Source: Nannochloropsis salina CCMP1776 (taxonomy: Eukaryota; Sar; Eustigmatophyceae; Eustigmatales; Monodopsidaceae). From it: a stretch of 64,000 nucleotides of DNA. Made by a program: the position numbers and the translations under genes. The stretch spans positions 118,015 through 182,014 of the forward strand of contig SDOX01000021.1 in NCBI GenBank assembly GCA_004565275.1. Reading direction: 5' to 3'. Below, in pieces: positions 12,981-15,589 of this stretch (positions within the stretch are counted from its first letter, which is position 1; each line of letters opens with the position of its first letter). The notes beneath the pieces are model-generated. The model searched no databases, had not been told where the DNA came from, and worked only from the letters and a program-made list of their open reading frames with translations.

Positions 12981-15589
<2,609 letters not shown>

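Follow-up and report, generated by a model that had tools for sequence, protein, structure and literature searches.

A candidate four-nucleotide exon carrying the catalytic glutamate codon of a GH9 endoglucanase gene in Nannochloropsis salina

Introduction

Where does a GH9 endoglucanase gene of Nannochloropsis salina encode its general-acid glutamate? The question is raised by a gene on the minus strand of a 64,000-nt stretch of strain CCMP1776 (contig SDOX01000021.1, positions 118,015 to 182,014), which was analysed as a whole and is referred to here as the window. In Nannochloropsis, a passage of PMC3886936 describes GH9 as one of the dominant glycoside hydrolase families, and text from PMC5509672 on N. 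gaditana cites seven cellulases and names cellulose as the major wall polysaccharide. In our reading, the glutamate codon of the N. salina gene is very probably carried by a microexon of four nucleotides, GAAG, that is included constitutively. This reading of the DNA follows from the splice signals, from the failure of every other join that we tried and from homology, which are presented in turn below.

Results

The gene was traced from 15589 to 12981 on the minus strand, in six exons separated by GT-AG introns. Exon 1 (15481..15589, 109 nt) holds the start codon and, by eye, an apparent signal peptide, and ends at the donor AAC|GTAAGT. Exon 2 (15019..15276, 258 nt) carries the DAGD motif with two conserved Asp residues, and exon 3 (14004..14814, 811 nt) has support from P0002, which shows 99% identity across 57% of the protein length. 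Direct reading of the sequence places the 3' end of exon 4 (13516..13678, 163 nt) at TACCAGAAAAAC|GTAAGT at 13516, in phase 0, and the start of the last coding exon (12981..13063, 83 nt including TAA), which begins TG GCC ATC GAC, at TTTGTCAG|TGGCCATCGAC at 13063. Joining these two exons directly shifts the frame. Between them, at 13331-13316, CAACAG|GAAG|GTAAAG sets an AG acceptor and a GT donor directly against four bases (13322..13325), which as exon 5 would provide the codon for Glu448 and the first base of the codon for Val449. The two introns thus defined are intron 4 (13326..13515, 190 nt, GTAAGT...CAACAG) and intron 5 (13064..13321, 258 nt, GTAAAG...TGTCAG), similar in size to the other three (204, 204 and 325 nt). 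Joined in this way, the six exons total 1,428 nt including the stop codon and give a complete protein of 475 aa. The predicted spliced sequence is AACGAAGTGGCC with GAAG and AACTGGCC at the junction without it. An earlier note on this DNA had proposed a four-nucleotide GAAG exon at this place between exon 4 and the last exon, and its coordinates, frame and total length all match ours.

On the evidence of its sequence, the gene encodes a GH9 endoglucanase. The 475-aa product is matched by PF00759 over its full length (451.7 bits, profile positions 1-443 of 444), and its GGWYDAGDH aligns with the DAGD of solved GH9 enzymes, whose Asp pair we take to be catalytic. Full-length matches to the predicted protein were found in the GH9 endoglucanases 1ks8, T. 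fusca E4 (1js4) and N. oceanica P0008, a likeness established by protein sequence comparison at the level of the protein family. Cellulase activity is predicted and the enzyme is probably secreted. The form that skips GAAG still passes the Pfam cut-off (426.1 bits, profile positions 1-434), and the Pfam match alone thus does not require the exon. The Glu of GH9 signature 2 is present solely when GAAG is included. Glu448 then aligns with E412 of the termite cellulase 1ks8, presumably the catalytic acid, and N-E-V is conserved in the five solved relatives shown in the alignment; the NEV of the signature is shared with 1ks8 and also with N. oceanica P0008.

We then asked which other joins between exon 4 and the last exon would restore signature 2. 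Two scans were run, both covering zero or one middle exon. The first allowed GT or GC donors at 13600-13401, AG acceptors and a middle exon of up to 120 nt; of the 46 joins made directly and the 12,621 made through one middle exon, a single one succeeded, namely that through GAAG. When AT donors and AC acceptors were also permitted, none of 2,778 direct joins restored the signature, and GAAG was again the sole success among 8,313 middle-exon joins under other bounds. Direct joins and alternative donors (GT, GC, AT) and acceptors (AG, AC) were rejected on this basis. That GAAG supplies the signature 2 glutamate, as the earlier note had claimed, is therefore upheld by the scans as the sole tried join restoring the signature, and by the alignment with 1ks8.

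The splice signals of the microexon are usable, not the strongest. Its donor, AAG|GTAAAG, matches the U1 consensus at 6 of 9 positions, the same as the donor of intron 2, and departs from GTAAGT at +5 and +6; among the five acceptors of the gene, that of the microexon is poorest in pyrimidines (a fraction of 0.67, the others ranging from 0.71 to 0.86). A GTAAGG site inside intron 4, at 13427, is a better U1 match (7/9). Among 5,000 dinucleotide-shuffled versions of the 452-nt intron, 266 (about 5%) contained the core AG|GARG|GT. The window holds 15 copies of it (11 on the plus strand, 4 on the minus strand), so that the core alone is weak evidence and only mildly surprising. The longer YAG|GARG|GTRAR, a motif picked post hoc, appeared in 7 of 5,000 shuffles and has one occurrence on both strands of the window, the microexon site itself.

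Homologues were surveyed in 171 proteins, made up of the 120 listed out of 1,758 and all 51 of a second set. The motif pattern fitted 142 of them, and the 29 that did not fit were left uncounted. Glu was displayed by 134 of the 142 through the pattern and by three more on reading (P0029, P0049 and P0143, which score as non-E through an offset of the pattern and do contain NEV), giving 137/142. The remainder comprises P0123, P0126 and P0127, which show a non-E letter where their ORFs apparently run into an intron, and P0086 (NDVAC) and P0161, where Glu is not displayed.

Some of these proteins come from relatives in which the exon boundary itself can be approached, with splice sites inferred from ORF translations. 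In the ORFs P0123, P0126 and P0127, which come from public contigs of uncultured relatives, a GT donor is read directly after the same Asn, and frame analysis of P0005, from another uncultured relative, fits a GTAYGT donor after that Asn; all four fit a microexon or a last exon starting with Glu alike. In the relatives P0122 and P0124, Glu is read inside exon 4. P0124 had been considered as proof of an ancestral microexon and was dropped, since its donor may follow the Glu codon directly or four bases later. Searches of viral and genome contigs with P0005 found no DNA of these relatives, and a protein search for last-exon ORFs gave one scored candidate, the window's own. P0167, a last-exon ORF with no Glu before VAIDY, lies on 8 contigs, the longest of 149,653 bases and hence distinct from the window's own contig of 1.46 Mb.

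Within the same genome (a 26.5-Mb assembly, with the window on contig C57), GH9 matches were found at five places. In two of the genes, L001 and the one at 77-80 kb of C37, the reading frame continues uninterrupted across the Glu codon. L002 (G000:C2:824075-825406) has an intron ten bases past the Glu codon. In the paralogue on C80 (L014), an intron lies four bases before the Glu codon, in phase 2, and the Glu falls in a 29-nt exon on the reverse strand (4654-4682; G000:C80:28047-28019), where a NEVALDYNS stretch stands between two introns. L014 and the window gene thus both hold the Glu in a short exon between introns, of 29 nt in the former and 4 nt in the latter. In total, three of the five GH9 genes have an intron within 10 bases of the Glu codon, at differing positions. 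It is plausible that the microexon originated when a second intron arose four bases from an existing one. As a separate observation, another apparent intron of L002 contains an in-frame TAG (TACAG|GTAGGT...GCACAG|TGGC).

Discussion

How might four bases be spliced? We propose that GAAG is included constitutively and spliced in two steps. Either flanking intron (190 or 258 nt) would leave first, fusing GAAG to a neighbour of normal size, and the second intron would then be excised as from an ordinary exon. Such an order would spare the spliceosome from having to grip both ends of four bases simultaneously, and the included exon would restore the frame and provide the general-acid Glu448. That the exon is spliced, in this order and constantly, is what we infer from the DNA.

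The earlier note had further suggested that skipping of GAAG would shift the frame and remove the glutamate, and that splicing could in this way turn the enzyme on or off. The first part stands by computation: the skipped form is a 496-aa product with an altered C-terminus and no Glu. The on/off switch, for its part, gains no support beyond that frameshift. As a regulated switch, the microexon would be skipped in some conditions, and splicing would set the amount of active enzyme through a frameshifted, Glu-less protein. The abundance of G-runs in intron 4 (12 runs of GGG or more) would suit such regulation, as would the alternative splicing under changing CO2 that a row in a review table records for N. 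oceanica (PMC12702839). Yet the stop codon of the skipped form, at 12916-12914, lies after the last junction, which leaves no obvious target for decay, and the 1-nt exon of APC11, in the account given in PMC4674806, is constitutive. We consider a regulated switch very unlikely, and we would give an equally slim chance to its extension, in which a four-base cassette exon acts as a catalytic switch by which the alga adjusts cellulase activity in a wall made of cellulose, for instance when daughter cells are released. For completeness, retention of intron 4 would bring in a stop at 13377-13375, within that intron and ahead of the junction of intron 5, and retention of intron 5 a stop at 13301-13299, within that intron and with no later junction.

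Slimmer still is the chance that the gene is a pseudogene or encodes an inactive enzyme through some other intron removal. A removal of GTAAGT...TCA|GTGGCC, for example, is in frame, with AAC + GTGGCC read as N-V-A, and leaves the product without the Glu; it requires, however, that a non-canonical acceptor be used next to a canonical AG, in a gene that otherwise stays open over 475 aa with GT-AG sites and belongs to a family in which the pattern-matching homologues surveyed above nearly all keep the glutamate. Least probable of all is a mistake in the assembly or in a base close to the intron, masking a simpler gene structure: the site was read from one assembly, but the last exon and upstream intron are read likewise in P0167 on 8 other contigs, maybe of the same strain, and four relatives are read with a donor at the same Asn.

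The constitutive four-nucleotide exon, our preferred reading, can be set beside tiny exons that are already known. The earlier note called exons of four nucleotides extremely rare, which is overstated; they are uncommon. The relevant passages of PMC8831610 put the number of small microexons in ten plants at 2,398, with 337 of 1-15 nt in Chlamydomonas, and describe a 4-nt microexon in rice LOC_Os02g54020 that was validated by RT-PCR and had been missed by annotation. The rice exon resembles ours in being internal, of exactly 4 nt and needed for the full protein; it differs in belonging to a land plant, and the loss described for it in the passage concerns protein motifs rather than a catalytic codon. 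In Fusarium CYP621A, a 1-nt exon within a conserved motif is confirmed by SRA reads (PMC12940212, in the part concerned). There, too, a tiny exon was spotted by frame restoration in a conserved enzyme motif (the glycine of PKG), whereas its single nucleotide is the central base of a glycine codon and 20 orthologues were compared. The constitutive 1-nt exon of Arabidopsis APC11, studied with reporter constructs according to PMC4674806, is likewise extremely small and restores the frame, but is 1 nt long and, as presented there, not the catalytic codon of an enzyme. Tiny exons of four and one nucleotides in plants, and of one in a Fusarium P450, are therefore known; what is unusual here is that a whole catalytic codon is involved and that the organism is a stramenopile alga. 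Our searches of the open-licence literature found nothing on a Nannochloropsis microexon, and by title this exon was absent under four-nucleotide exons, microexons with a catalytic residue, and GH9 cellulases of Nannochloropsis.

If spliced as proposed, the gene would place a whole catalytic codon on an exon small enough for gene finders and short-read aligners to miss, a problem that text in PMC8831610 reports for plants. Algal genes with such exons could accordingly be annotated as broken or truncated, and with this gene a stramenopile would offer a clean natural test of how an exon of 4 nt is dealt with by the spliceosome.

The flanking introns and one relative yield some further observations. 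Intron 4 was considered as a recently inserted repeated element; a genome search found no second copy, a result that does not prove rarity, and the idea was rejected. Its G-runs (three or more G each) lie on the coding strand, and a G-quadruplex is possible there; G-runs can influence splicing. In intron 5, matches elsewhere in the genome are confined to a CCCTCCCT tract, for which at least 20 further matches were found. P0001, an EVM model from a relative, fuses the N-terminal portion of a GH9 protein to a C-terminal end assigned to PF04615, which we take to be Utp14, and looks as if the annotator had skipped exon 4 and the gene end. The window itself shows a C-terminus resembling that of P0001, at 20343-21467.
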